From the NCBI GenBank assembly GCA_027487315.1, contig JAIYDW010000100.1, forward strand, positions 1-64,000: a stretch of DNA of 64,000 nucleotides, written 5' to 3'. Below, piece after piece: positions 6,525-11,417 of this stretch. Within the stretch, counting starts at the first letter, position 1. Each line of letters starts with the position of its first letter. The translations under genes and the position numbers were made by a program. A model generated the notes under the pieces. The model did not search any database, was not told the DNA's origin, and saw only the letters and a list, made by a program, of their open reading frames with translations. This stretch comes from Verrucomicrobiaceae bacterium. GTDB taxonomy: Bacteria > Verrucomicrobiota > Verrucomicrobiia > Verrucomicrobiales > Verrucomicrobiaceae.

Positions 6525-6950
6525 ATGGCTCAAGAAACCACCCTCATCCTCCTCAAGCCCGATTGCGTCGCCAAAGGCCTCAATGGCGAAGTCCTCAAAC
6601 GCTTTGAAGCCGAAGGCTTCCGCGTCCGCGGCTGCAAAATGATGCAACTCACCGACGAGCTGCTCAAAGAGCACTACTCCCACATCGCCGACAAACCCTT
6701 CTTCCCCGACGTCGCCGCCTTCATGAAGAGCGCACCCGTCATCGCCGTCGCCCTCAGCGGAGAAAACATCATCTCCCATGTCCGCGACCTCCTCGGCCCC
6801 ACCGACTCCAAAACCGCCCCCAAAGGCACCATCCGCGGTGACTTCGGCGACGACAAAATGACCAACGTCGTCCACGCCTCCGACTCCCCCGAAGCCGCCG
6901 CCGTCGAACTCAAGCGCTTCTTCAAAGACGGCGAAATCTTCACCTACTAA
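6525..6950 (+). CDS. ndk: Nucleoside diphosphate kinase
   Basis: 141 residues, full length for bacterial Ndk, which transfers the gamma-phosphate of ATP to nucleoside diphosphates through a phospho-histidine. The active-site segment NVVHASD puts the catalytic histidine at residue 117. The N-terminal TLILLKPDCV is also typical. A strong intrinsic terminator follows 27 bases after the stop. The last 65 codons and the terminator are duplicated 1.6 kb downstream at 98% identity (see 8321-8566). Confidence 0.97.
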   Translation: MAQETTLILLKPDCVAKGLNGEVLKRFEAEGFRVRGCKMMQLTDELLKEHYSHIADKPFFPDVAAFMKSAPVIAVALSGENIISHVRDLLGPTDSKTAPKGTIRGDFGDDKMTNVVHASDSPEAAAVELKRFFKDGEIFTY

Positions 6951-6999
6951 GCTCCGCCATCCAGTTTCTTCCTTGAAGGGCGTCCCACCGGACGCCCTT
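6754..6999 (+). repeat. Direct repeat, left copy (3' part of ndk plus terminator)
   Basis: This 246-bp segment recurs at 8321-8566 with four mismatches. It contains codons 77-141 of the intact ndk gene, the stop and the terminator hairpin. The two copies bracket 1.3 kb of accessory DNA. This copy is the functional one because it is continuous with the ndk 5' part. Confidence 0.95.
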
Positions 7000-7003
7000 T
7001 TTT
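6978..7003 (+). terminator. Intrinsic terminator of ndk
   Basis: A perfect 8-bp GC-rich stem, GGGCGTCC (6978-6985) and GGACGCCC (6990-6997), with loop CACC and followed by six T. Flanking AA/TT can extend the stem. Confidence 0.93.
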
Positions 7004-7310: not shown

Positions 7311-7763
7311 TCATAAAGGCACAACAAGCCCCTCAGCCTCGGCTAACTCCTTCTGCTTGCCATCGAAGGTCAGGAACTCGGACGCACCAAGATGAAGCGC
7401 CGTGGCTACGTGAATCACATCAAATCCCCGGTAGCCTTCAGTCCATGTGTATTGAGCCGACAATCGTTCCGCGATACTAACCAAATCTGCCCAATCAACA
7501 GGGACGACTACCACAGCTCCGCTCGCAATTTCAAGCTGTAGCTTTGAGAGAGCCGCCAAGGCTGTTGCCTTGGCATACCCTTTGCTTGGATCTTTTTGAT
7601 GAAGGAACGTTTGCCACCGGACAGATTGCCTGAACTCAAACAGAAGCGGTGAGGCCACATGCAGAGCCTCCGGCATCTGCGCAAAATGAGCCGCAGCTTG
7701 AGGGGAGTTGACCTGCTTGCGGTAAAAGGCACACAAAAACGATGTATCCGGATAAGCGATCAA
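7311..7763 (-). CDS. VapC-type PIN-domain ribonuclease toxin
   Basis: 150 residues with the acidic constellation of a PIN domain: Asp6 in YPDTSFL, Glu43 in LLFEFR, an Asp in GFDVIHVATAL and a final Asp in FLTFDGKQ. VapC toxins are Mg-dependent RNases that commonly cleave tRNA or rRNA. The start codon overlaps the upstream antitoxin stop by 4 bp (7760-7763), the usual arrangement of a toxin-antitoxin operon. It lies in the accessory segment between the two ndk 3' repeats. Confidence 0.88.
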   Translation of the reverse strand: MIAYPDTSFLCAFYRKQVNSPQAAAHFAQMPEALHVASPLLFEFRQSVRWQTFLHQKDPSKGYAKATALAALSKLQLEIASGAVVVVPVDWADLVSIAERLSAQYTWTEGYRGFDVIHVATALHLGASEFLTFDGKQKELAEAEGLVVPL

Positions 7764-8020
7764 CCCTCCTCACCCTCCAATTCGGCTTCTTTCATCGCTG
7801 CTACCTCTTCCATGGAAAAGACACGGTCACCCCAGACCTCGTTCAGGCGAGCCATAATGTCAGGCTTCGGAGCCATGCGGGGAGTGGCAACCTCAGCCAA
7901 AGAAGTGAGCTGGGCAAAGGCACGGCCTCGCTTGATGATCTGCACGGTTTCTCCGTGCTCGATCCACGAGGACACTCGCCGGAAGTTGTTTCGAAGGTCA
8001 GCGACAGTTGCAGTTTTCAT
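7760..8020 (-). CDS. Phd/YefM-family antitoxin, partner of the adjacent VapC
   Basis: 86 residues. The N-terminal half (MKTATVADLRNNFRRVSSWIE... VQIIKRGRAFAQL) is the Phd/YefM DNA-binding fold. The variable, acidic C-terminus (MEEVAAMKEAELEGEEG) would wrap the toxin. Promoter-proximal DNA at 8020-8038 carries TGATA/TATCA half-sites that may be the operator for autorepression by the complex. Translation of the toxin is coupled by a 4-bp overlap. Confidence 0.85.
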   Translation of the reverse strand: MKTATVADLRNNFRRVSSWIEHGETVQIIKRGRAFAQLTSLAEVATPRMAPKPDIMARLNEVWGDRVFSMEEVAAMKEAELEGEEG

Positions 8021-8320: not shown

Positions 8321-8517
8321 TCAGCGGAGAAAACATCATCTCCCATGTCCGCGACCTCCTCGACCCCACCGACTCCAAAACCGCCCCCAAAGGCACCATC
8401 CGCGGTGATTTCGGCGACGACAAAATGACCAACGTCGTCCACGCCTCCGACTCCCCCGAAGCCGCCGCCGTCGACCTCAAGCGCTTCTTCAAAGACGGCG
8501 AAATCTTCACCTACTAA
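8321..8517 (+). pseudogene. Truncated duplicate of the 3' end of ndk
   Basis: A near-identical copy of codons 77-141 of ndk, including the active-site NVVHASD and the TAA stop, with two amino-acid changes (Gly91 to Asp, Glu131 to Asp) and one silent change. Upstream, the frame runs into TAG at 8299-8301 with no start codon between, so no product is expected. Together with the terminator copy it forms the right-hand direct repeat (8321-8566). Confidence 0.92.
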
Positions 8518-8566
8518 GCTCCGCCATCCAGTTCCTTCCTTGAAGGGCGTCCCACCGGACGCCCTT
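8321..8566 (+). repeat. Direct repeat, right copy (ndk 3' end plus terminator)
   Basis: Matches 6754-6999 at 242 of 246 positions. Similarity stops abruptly on both sides. The segment between the repeats (7000-8320) holds the MITE-like element and the Phd/VapC pair, so the repeats look like the footprint of an insertion or of a tandem duplication that was later reshaped. Confidence 0.95.
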
Positions 8567-8573
8567 CTTTTTT
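8545..8573 (+). terminator. Duplicated intrinsic terminator
   Basis: Second copy of the ndk terminator: stem 8545-8552 / 8557-8564, loop CACC, followed by a T-rich run interrupted by one C. It now insulates the downstream BlaI-type regulator gene from upstream transcription. Confidence 0.85.
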
Positions 8574-8580
8574 GCCTCTT

Positions 8581-8634
8581 TGCCGACAAATGTCGTATTT
8601 TAATCTTGTCAAATCTGACATTTGTCGGCATAAC
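8581..8634 (+). promoter_or_regulatory. Twin BlaI-type operator flanking a promoter
   Basis: A 14-bp perfect inverted repeat, TGCCGACAAATGTC (8581-8594) and GACATTTGTCGGCA (8617-8630), sits directly before the BlaI-family gene. Each arm is itself a dyad of the form GACA-NN-TGTC, close to the TACA-NN-TGTA core of known BlaI/MecI operators. Between and across them, TTGTCA (8606-8611), 17 bp and CATAAC (8629-8634) form a likely promoter, with transcription expected to begin close to the ATG at 8641. Repressor bound to either dyad would block it. Confidence 0.7.
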
Positions 8635-8640
8635 AGCGCC

Positions 8641-9039
8641 ATGGCGCCCAAAAAACCGTCTCCTCTCTCCGCCGCAGAACAGGCCATCATGGACCATGTC
8701 TGGAAAAAACAGCCCGTTGGCCTCAATGATTTGCTGACCGATATCAACGAGGCGCGCCTCCAGCCCCTCTCACGCGCCTCCCTGCAAACCCAGCTCACCC
8801 GGCTGGAATCCAAAGGCTGGTTACGTCGCGACGACTCCTCCCGGGCCCACCTCTACTCCGCCGCCATCGCTGAATCGCGCGGCCGCAAAAGTGTTCTCGG
8901 GGAACTCAAACAACGCCTCTTCGGCGGCAGCAGCCTCGCCCTCGTCCGCTGCCTCGTCGAAGACGGTGAGATCAGCGACTCCGAGCTCGCCGAGCTGAAG
9001 AAACTCGTCAACCAAGCCCATGCCAAACCCAAGCCATGA
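8641..9039 (+). CDS. BlaI/MecI-family winged-helix repressor
   Basis: 132 residues. Residues about 8-75 (LSAAEQAIMDHVWKK... LTRLESKGWLRRDD... HLYSA) match the penicillinase-repressor winged helix, and the C-terminal half would be the dimerisation domain. An upstream in-frame codon exists at 8572 but would place the operator inside the gene, so the ATG at 8641 is used. It overlaps by 4 bp the M56 peptidase gene. In the BlaI/BlaR1 paradigm the membrane peptidase is needed to inactivate the repressor. Self-regulation through the twin operator is inferred. Confidence 0.9.
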   Translation: MAPKKPSPLSAAEQAIMDHVWKKQPVGLNDLLTDINEARLQPLSRASLQTQLTRLESKGWLRRDDSSRAHLYSAAIAESRGRKSVLGELKQRLFGGSSLALVRCLVEDGEISDSELAELKKLVNQAHAKPKP

Positions 9040-11417
9040 ACGAAATCACTCTTCTCAACCTCGGATTTCAAGCGTTGGCGCTCTCCGCCCTCGGCTGGAT
9101 CACCCTTCGCTCAGGGATCAAAGACGCCCGACACCGCGCATGGACCGCCCTGCTGGTGCTCTTCACGACCGCAATTCTGCCTCTCGCATTACTCGCCTTC
9201 CCCATTCCCTCCACCCCTCCCCTTCAGTTCGAATCCTCCGCAAAGTCATCGCCTTCCTCCCTCAACTGGAAAATCCACCTGGATCCCACCCCGGTTCAAA
9301 CAAATCCCAGCGTCTCGGGTGCCCCGTCTTCGACCCTCATCTTCACCGACTTTTCCTGGGCACGCCTCCTCGCGGGTTCGTGGCTGACCATCTCTCTCGT
9401 GCTCGCGTCTCAACGCATCTTCCGCCTTTGGAAAACCTATCGCTGGCGGCAAACCCTCCGGCGACTCACAGACGAAGAATCTTTGACTCTATCCGCCCTG
9501 ACCTCGCCAGAAAAACTCCGTGTCTCTGAAACCAGTCAAGGCCCCTGCCTCAGCGGCTGCTTTCATCCGCTCATCGTCGTTCCTGCCGAAGCCTTCCAAT
9601 CATGGACTCCGGAACGCTGGCGCTGGATGCTCGCCCACGAAGGCGAACACCGCCGCAGCGGCGACACCTGGATGAGCGAATGGCTCGGCCTTCTCACCGT
9701 CTGGCAATGGTGGAACCCGTTTGTTCATGCGCTCGTCTCGAAATGGGAACAAGCACGCGAAGAAATCTGTGACGCCACCGCCCTGTCCGGCCAAGCCCAT
9801 CACGCCACCGCCTATTCCAGCTTCCTGCTCGATTTGGTCGCAAACCACCGACAACCTCACCTCCAAACCCTCTCCATGGCAACCTCCCGCCCCGCCCGCC
9901 GCATGAGACGCCGCCTCGAAGCTCTGCTTGAGCAGCGTCCCGTCGCCCCTCGCCTCCACCCTGCCTTCATCGCTGCCGCTCTGCTTCTCACCTCCCTCGC
10001 TGGCCTCACCGTCCGCACCTTGGGCGTGGAGCCGACCTCCCCGACGACCCCAAAAACAACCGGAGAACTCGAAACCCGGGCTTTTAAACTGCCTCCCAAT
10101 TTCGACGGAGCCAACAACGCCAAAGACTGGCTAAGCAAACTCGGTGTCGTTTTTCCCGAAGGCTCCTCTGCTGCTTTCAATCCCACCACAAGCCAGCTCA
10201 TCACCCGCAACATTCCGAACGCATTGAACCAAACCGCAGAGTTGCTCAAAAAATGGCAGGCAGGAGTCGAGTTCGACGAAGTTCAAGTTTACCTCACCAC
10301 GAAATGGGTCGAAATGCCGGCCAATCCATCGCCAGATGACCCTCTGGCGCGTGAATTGACCCGCCTGGGTCCACTCCTGACCGACTCTCAGCTTCAAGCC
10401 GTGATCCGCGCGTTGTCTCAAACGAAGGACGTCGATTTGCTCACCGCTCCCAGCGTCACCACCCGAGACGGCCAGCAAGCCACGGTCGAGGTCCTGCGCG
10501 AAGTTTATGTCTCACCTTCAGGACGGGAGGACTTCGCCGGCATTCGCTGTGATTTAACCGCCACCATCCAAAAAACCGCCAACATCCAAAACGGCCAAAT
10601 CGAAGTGATGGTCTCCGCCGACCTGGGCGTGGCCTTTCAGGATGGCAAACGCCTGAAAGACTGGAAAGCCATGACATCGTCACCGCTGAAGATTCTTCAT
10701 CTCTACGCCACCAAAACAGCTACTCTTAACGATGGCGAAACCTTGCTAATCCCGATCGGAAATGCCGAACCAGATCGCCAGGTCATGCTCTTTGTCACCG
10801 CCGCCCTCATTCGACCCACCGGCCAAAAACTCGCTCCAGGTCAGCTTCATCAATTGGCCACCGCCGCCACCAATGCCCCACCCCACCAACCCGTGGCGGC
10901 ACCCCCCAAGAAACCCATTCGAATCCTCGCCAAACTCCTGGAGGCAAACGGAGCCGAAGCCCTCAAGGCCATTCTGCCAATGCCCCTAACGGACGCTTCA
11001 CCCAACGCGGGTGCCCCGTCAGCCATCGCTCCAACCAACACCCTTCCACCTCCAGGCGCCCTCGCAATGGGTGGCGTGATGTCGTCAGATCAATTCACCG
11101 CCTTGGTCAAAGACCTGAAACAAGATTCCCGTGTGCAAATCACCGATGTTCCTGTCGAGCGCGTCATCACTGGAGAAGCCACCCTGGCCCGAATCAACGC
11201 CGAGCAAGTCCTCCAAGTCACCCCCACTATCGGCGCAGACGGCCAAACCATCGACCTCAACCTTCACCTCTTGAAGCAAGGAGAAAAACCCGGCATGTCC
11301 ACCACCGTCACCGTCTGGCCAGGACAAACGGTATTCCTCTCAGGCGTCACCGCCGTAGACGAATCCGGAAAACCCACTCACTCCCGCGCCATCAGCATCA
11401 CCGCCGAAATCGAATAA
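9036..11417 (+). CDS. BlaR1-like M56 membrane metallopeptidase fused to secretin-like domains
   Basis: 793 residues. The N-terminal half is a BlaR1/M56 peptidase with membrane segments near residues 5-25, 36-55 and 108-125, the zinc motif HEGEH at 201-205 with downstream EEICDA, and a further membrane span at about 308-327. Instead of the penicillin-sensing domain of BlaR1, residues about 400-620 resemble the beta domain of type II/III secretins (LLTAPSVTTRDGQQATVEV... LNDGETLLIPIG). Residues about 680-793 hold a second shorter copy (VLQVTPTIGADGQTIDLNL... VWPGQTVFLSG). It overlaps the BlaI gene by 4 bp. The ligand sensed by the C-terminal part is unknown. Confidence 0.85.
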   Translation: MNEITLLNLGFQALALSALGWITLRSGIKDARHRAWTALLVLFTTAILPLALLAFPIPSTPPLQFESSAKSSPSSLNWKIHLDPTPVQTNPSVSGAPSSTLIFTDFSWARLLAGSWLTISLVLASQRIFRLWKTYRWRQTLRRLTDEESLTLSALTSPEKLRVSETSQGPCLSGCFHPLIVVPAEAFQSWTPERWRWMLAHEGEHRRSGDTWMSEWLGLLTVWQWWNPFVHALVSKWEQAREEICDATALSGQAHHATAYSSFLLDLVANHRQPHLQTLSMATSRPARRMRRRLEALLEQRPVAPRLHPAFIAAALLLTSLAGLTVRTLGVEPTSPTTPKTTGELETRAFKLPPNFDGANNAKDWLSKLGVVFPEGSSAAFNPTTSQLITRNIPNALNQTAELLKKWQAGVEFDEVQVYLTTKWVEMPANPSPDDPLARELTRLGPLLTDSQLQAVIRALSQTKDVDLLTAPSVTTRDGQQATVEVLREVYVSPSGREDFAGIRCDLTATIQKTANIQNGQIEVMVSADLGVAFQDGKRLKDWKAMTSSPLKILHLYATKTATLNDGETLLIPIGNAEPDRQVMLFVTAALIRPTGQKLAPGQLHQLATAATNAPPHQPVAAPPKKPIRILAKLLEANGAEALKAILPMPLTDASPNAGAPSAIAPTNTLPPPGALAMGGVMSSDQFTALVKDLKQDSRVQITDVPVERVITGEATLARINAEQVLQVTPTIGADGQTIDLNLHLLKQGEKPGMSTTVTVWPGQTVFLSGVTAVDESGKPTHSRAISITAEIE

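Follow-up and report, generated by a model that had tools for sequence, protein, structure and literature searches.

The 64,000-nucleotide window analysed here, positions 1 to 64,000 of contig JAIYDW010000100.1 from a Verrucomicrobiaceae bacterium, carries an operon in which a gene for a BlaI-family repressor is followed by an ORF for a membrane protease of 793 aa (9036-11417, + strand) with a secretin-derived periplasmic half. The features of the locus are as follows.

8542-8567, + strand: terminator-like hairpin with an 11-pair stem and then a T run, between an ndk fragment and the operon
8585-8594, no strand assigned: palindrome GACAAATGTC, predicted operator site 1
8617-8626, no strand assigned: palindrome GACATTTGTC, predicted operator site 2, its first base 24 bp upstream of the start codon of blaI
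8641-9039, + strand: BlaI-family repressor, 132 aa (Penicillinase_R, PF03965, E 2e-21)
9036-10025, + strand: M56 metalloprotease half, residues 1-330 (PF05569 and BlaR1 structures), with helices at residues 2-26, 31-54, 107-139 and 309-329 in the AlphaFold model
9198-9353, + strand: EL1-like periplasmic loop, residues 55-106, with the conserved motif W78-[KRTS]-[IV]-x-[VLIM]
10062-10280, + strand: KH-like secretin N-domain, residues 343-415 (true-secretin profile, XcpQ N-domain)
10281-10835, + strand: secretin-like unit 1, residues 416-600 (PF00263, profile, structure matches, dN/dS 0.11)
10911-11414, + strand: secretin-like unit 2, residues 626-793 (profile pieces, dN/dS 0.17)

The likely start of blaI is the ATG at 8641, and the closest solved relative of its product is BlaI 1sd4 (E 9e-11). 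The original prediction had placed this gene 4 bp upstream of the protease gene; instead the two overlap by 4 bp, the blaI stop codon ending at 9039 and the M56 ATG lying at 9036. That a BlaI-type partner shares the operon was borne out by the PF03965 match, by the overlap and by the relatives of the locus, since the adjacent BlaI/MecI-type repressor gene lies directly upstream in nearly all M56-secretin fusions, nearly always with the 4-bp overlap. Ahead of the operon, the 3' end of the nucleoside diphosphate kinase gene ndk (6525-6950) is duplicated as two 250-bp copies of 98% identity (6754-7003 and 8321-8570), the second just upstream of blaI. Between the copies lie, as if inserted, a PIN-type toxin-like ORF (7311-7763, - strand) and an antitoxin-like ORF (7760-8020, - strand).

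The N-terminal half of the 793-aa protein has the profile, the HEXXH...EXXXD gluzincin motifs and the transmembrane (TM) arrangement of peptidase family M56. Pfam matches Peptidase_M56 (PF05569) at residues 46-297 above the curated cut-off (E 1.1e-24), and NCBIfam matches parts of its BlaR1 family. The HEGEH motif occupies residues 201-205, and in an alignment of 16 proteins H201, E202, H205, D210, E242, D246 and Y260 are invariant. In BlaR1 the catalytic set is made up of H201EXXH and E242XXXD, and its D210 and Y261 are almost invariant (PMC9834060); the M56 protein matches this set and has all of the catalytic residues. A whole-protein AlphaFold model, built from 16 relatives (mean pLDDT 69.5, pTM 0.40), matches BlaR1 structures solved by cryo-EM (Z 16-17 across residues 2-284), and its four helices agree with four TM segments, which by homology would give an N-out, C-out topology. 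The protease half is thus of the BlaR1 type, as the original prediction had proposed. No transpeptidase or beta-lactamase profile was matched by the protein in Pfam up to E 1. Beta-lactam sensing was considered and rejected, the penicillin-binding domain being absent and residues 343-600 having a secretin fold. The protein is a member of family M56 and not a beta-lactam sensor.

Between the second and third helices, the EL1-like loop retains W78 in all 20 relatives that have such a loop. The tryptophan is followed by a basic or polar residue, I or V, any residue, and V, L or I, a strand-like pattern, and the remainder of the loop is variable and of low confidence in the AlphaFold model. In BlaR1, EL1 plugs the sensor. 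When this sensor receives a signal, EL1 is displaced and the TM region shifts, so that the protease cuts BlaI (PMC9834060). We infer that the EL1-like strand docks on the secretin-like part.

For the periplasmic half, profiles, models and structure searches agree on a secretin origin. Pfam matches Secretin (PF00263) at residues 459-572 above the curated cut-off (E 9.6e-8), the same family being matched at E 0.01 by 13 of 16 relatives, and in NCBIfam the Amuc_1098 pilus secretin family matches over three stretches at E 3e-27, a score far below the equivalog cut-off. A profile for this half, built from true secretins of Verrucomicrobiota, identified a KH-like N-domain at 360-427 (iE 1.6e-11), which the original prediction had overlooked and which is repeated in some relatives; it superimposes on the XcpQ N-domain with Z 7.5 and an rmsd of 2.4 over 60 residues. 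The same profile matches unit 1 at 442-491 (iE 5e-19), and the KH-like domain together with unit 1 matches GspD, PilQ and pIV with Z 10-13, so that both profile and fold of a secretin C-domain are present. In a Foldseek search with the whole model, BlaR1 headed the list and secretins followed, as far as E 3e-4. A second model, of residues 338-793, was built from 24 relatives with true secretins left out (pLDDT 74.8, pTM 0.65); its first 28 structure matches were all secretins (Z 7.8-12.7), with unrelated structures at Z 6.0 or less. Model confidence is moderate, with mean pLDDT of 70-75 and pTM of 0.40 for the whole protein and 0.65 for the C-terminal half. The unrelated C-terminal fold that would have spoken against a secretin origin did not appear in either the models or the structure searches for the KH-like domain and unit 1.

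Two secretin-like repeats had been predicted. The first stands on PF00263, profile and fold. The second gives weak profile pieces in this protein (iE 0.002-0.1) and is clear in relatives, at residues 851-907 of L076 (iE 1e-16) and 712-766 of L073 (iE 2e-12). Its probable identity thus comes from sequence matches in relatives, the structure matches covering the KH-like domain and unit 1; the list of structure matches for residues 338-793 is filled by those to unit 1 and has no bearing on unit 2 either way.

The nearest relatives of this half are the Amuc_1098-type secretins, kin of PilQ and GspD. The KH-like N-domain and the C-domain are collinear with theirs, and the motifs ALSQ..GVDLL.APSVTT..GQ.A, DG.T and FVTA.LI.P.G are shared. 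The M56 protein differs in lacking the TPR-STN front, in its shortened C-domain, in its inner-membrane anchor, which the protease provides, and in the absence of P-x-L-G-D-I-P-x-L-G. We equate this last motif with the amphipathic helical loop that lies at the outer-membrane rim. Such a loop is conserved in all solved secretins and may be what first contacts the outer membrane (PMC6532946). The motif was found in 29 of 33 non-M56 relatives, with a variant just outside the pattern in one more, and in none of the M56 proteins; an outer-membrane pore is therefore unlikely, and that reading was rejected. The secretin ancestry holds, but placement of the units in the outer membrane is unlikely, the missing motif being present in almost every true secretin of Verrucomicrobiota. 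Secretin parts have another use outside pores in four proteins of 430-610 aa without M56 (L147 3383-4732, L148 2833-4140, L149 2473-4314 and L150 844-2142), which combine an anchor-like segment with STN, KH or secretin-like parts.

The M56-secretin fusion is real and conserved. A close relative (E <1e-40) is present in 17 of 36 sampled genomes of Verrucomicrobiaceae, one of them a single-contig genome, and a scan of species genomes at the same threshold gave 21 loci, all in Verrucomicrobiota and including Prosthecobacter, Verrucomicrobium and Brevifollis; a shorter relative (L152) occurs in a sister family of the same order. None of eight M56 proteins examined from other phyla carried secretin parts. 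Against a relative of 95% identity, dN/dS is 0.19 overall, 0.11 in unit 1 and 0.17 in unit 2, and by this measure the whole C-terminal half is under purifying selection. A chance fusion, a misassembly or a decaying gene might be suspected from the same-genus copy in G001 (L067/L103, 5988-8368), which has a one-base frameshift just after HEGEH through either an assembly error or a broken gene, and from one interrupted copy in Brevifollis. This explanation is contradicted by the spread over 17 genomes, the single-contig occurrence, the dN/dS of 0.19 and the retention of operator and operon, and we regard it as virtually excluded. The selection data also bear on a rival reading, in which the secretin-like part serves as a scaffold for dimers or oligomers of the protease and the signal itself is cytoplasmic or in the membrane. 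Secretin domains do oligomerise and BlaR1 is a domain-swapped dimer (PMC9834060), but a scaffold would need neither two units and a KH-like domain under purifying selection nor a conserved EL1 motif facing the periplasmic part, and we consider this reading improbable.

M56 proteases of Verrucomicrobiota probably acquired secretin parts on more than one occasion. Two further M56 groups of the phylum carry them, in some cases followed by STN-like repeats, and mapping the secretin label onto an M56-domain tree takes three changes, of which well-supported branches force two or more; one gain followed by losses is not fully separable from several gains. In L082 (4971-7368) and L101 (3147-6020), an M56 protease and a secretin-like domain precede STN-like repeats, the reverse of the true-secretin order. 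Other M56 proteins of the phylum have periplasmic parts of PBP transpeptidase, CarboxypepD_reg/Ig-like or PDZ plus TonB_C type, and the periplasmic part is therefore exchangeable. One such protein, L093 (5342-8239), joins the M56 protease to PBP_dimer and transpeptidase domains and is BlaR1-like with a class B PBP-like sensor.

Operon neighbours differ between lineages, a methyltransferase-like gene lying downstream in the Prosthecobacter group, and conserved neighbours were rejected as a guide, those found being lineage-specific. No pilus or secretin gene was linked to the blaI-M56 operon in neighbourhoods across lineages. True secretins are widespread in the phylum, including genomes that lack the fusion, and co-occurrence is therefore uninformative.

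The palindrome GACANNTGTC occurs twice, 32 bp apart, ahead of the blaI operon, and we infer that BlaI binds both predicted sites. All 26 anchored loci have at least one exact site, the spacing is 32-34 bp where both are exact, and in most of the relatives aligned, site 2 lies 24-30 bp ahead of the start codon. A simple scan found no sigma-70 promoter at the operator. We then searched 18 genomes with a degenerate tandem pattern (KACANNTGTM, 20-26 bp, KACANNTGTM), which was present in all 18. It occurred 20 times, once per genome before the blaI-M56 operon, with the extra occurrences before a paralogous blaI-M56 operon (C53) of the own genome and at a second place in the Brevifollis genome G024; read backwards, the pattern occurred once. 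The tandem operator was found only before blaI/M56 genes in these genomes, and no full tandem was found at secretin or envelope genes. In the own genome as in G003, single copies of CGACANNTGTC away from the blaI operons fall inside ORFs or between converging gene ends, and one further CCGACANNTGTCGG in G013 is inside a gene; a pilus or stress regulon was rejected on these grounds. The original prediction had envisaged a sensor of envelope damage, misassembled secretins or a polymer; the operator search revealed no regulon for envelope stress. Because the tandem operator is confined to blaI/M56 genes and the single sites lie in ORFs or between converging gene ends, the protease-repressor system appears to control only its own operon, with weaker single-site targets possible.

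The paralogous operon of the own genome (G000:C53, L097 2460-6372) encodes CarboxypepD_reg repeats behind the same tandem GACA-TGTC operator, and with the operator common to both operons the two repressors could cross-act. The Brevifollis genome (loci L072 and L083/L121) has an intact M56-secretin fusion with no adjacent blaI detected and an operator 82 bp upstream, and in its second copy blaI is present and the M56 gene is interrupted by a stop.

With the tandem operator only before blaI/M56 operons, the sole clear product of induction is the M56-secretin protein itself, which invites the view that the system makes this protein for its own sake, perhaps to hold or plug secretin subunits in the periplasm, and that proteolysis serves self-regulation only. 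Coverage of single or degenerate sites elsewhere was partial, however, and the catalytic site is fully conserved; we judge this view improbable.

From what was observed of its domains, catalytic residues and predicted fold, of its operon and operator, and of its conservation and selection, we consider it very likely that the locus encodes a BlaR1-like, autoregulated periplasmic sensor with a BlaI-type repressor, and the protein probably works like BlaR1. In the basal state, BlaI would occupy the two operator sites before blaI and keep the operon low, while the periplasmic part would hold the protease inactive, probably, as in BlaR1, by way of TM4 and the EL1 loop. Binding or loss of a partner by the secretin-like part would shift TM4 and EL1 and activate the cytoplasmic zinc site, and the protease would then cut BlaI near C104-L105 and induce the operon. 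The position of this putative cut follows from alignment with the BlaI cleavage site N101-F102. The surrounding LVRCLVE stretch is invariant among the BlaI partners of the M56-secretin clade and differs in other BlaI paralogues, a pattern that fits co-adaptation of the repressor and protease pair.

The replacement of the penicillin sensor by secretin-derived parts and the apparent restriction of control to its own operon suggest that the sensor watches the cell envelope rather than antibiotics. The partner we favour, through like-with-like pairing, would be subunits or the periplasmic ring of an Amuc_1098-type (type IV pilus) outer-membrane secretin. Secretin-type STN domains of TonB-dependent transducers pair with those of anti-sigma factors and thereby govern the proteolysis of the latter (PMC11637429), and it is because of this FecR-type precedent that a secretin is favoured as the signal, an identification that stays speculative. 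In the same switch the secretin-like part could instead have stopped binding secretins and been reused as a general beta-rich binder of some other component of the envelope, for instance a pilin, a glycan or a cell-wall polymer, a plausible though still minority reading: the diverse periplasmic parts of Verrucomicrobiota M56 proteins mark the module as exchangeable, gate and insertion elements are lost, and the C-terminal halves fall to 25-38% identity between genera. Separate M56 clades nevertheless share the N-domain, the C-domain and STN-like repeats, which is easier to understand if secretin-like contacts matter. Taken whole, a BlaR1-type switch with a secretin-derived sensor whose most likely partner is an outer-membrane secretin is a tentative statement, which we hold at somewhat below even chances.

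What is known of BlaR1 concerns almost exclusively its sensing of antibiotics, and the staphylococcal operator core is TACA-TGTA. The present system resembles BlaR1/MecR1 with BlaI/MecI in its four TM helices, HEXXH/EXXXD zinc site, equivalents of D210 and the tyrosine, EL1 loop, BlaI-family repressor in the operon and palindromic operator. It differs in having KH-like and secretin-like units in place of the penicillin-binding (class D beta-lactamase-like) sensor, in its GACA-TGTC operator core and in that no resistance gene or other target was found. The FecR/PupR/FoxR anti-sigma factors are likewise inner-membrane regulators with a secretin-type periplasmic domain, and in FecR-type regulators contact of that domain with an outer-membrane partner controls proteolysis (PMC11637429). 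This is a comparison of workings only, the systems as such not being homologous: here there are KH-like and C-domains rather than STN, the protease is the protein's own and the regulator acts on a repressor rather than a sigma factor. A literature search, with most subscription journals outside its scope, returned no paper joining BlaR1, M56 and secretin, and within that scope we found no earlier description of the fusion.

In Verrucomicrobiota, a phylum with a poorly understood envelope and pilus secretins, the BlaR1-type pairing of protease and repressor has been rebuilt with secretin parts, probably several times. It becomes a testable question whether bacteria use a homologous sensor in the inner membrane to follow secretin assembly, and the highly specific, self-only operator offers a simple reporter for finding the signal. 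More broadly, the phylum may hold a class of M56 one-component envelope sensors, their secretin parts recruited more than once, that read outer-membrane secretin assembly through a secretin-mimicking periplasmic domain, a generalisation that we regard as rather unlikely at present; if true, it would couple pore biogenesis to gene control with neither a sigma factor nor a kinase.
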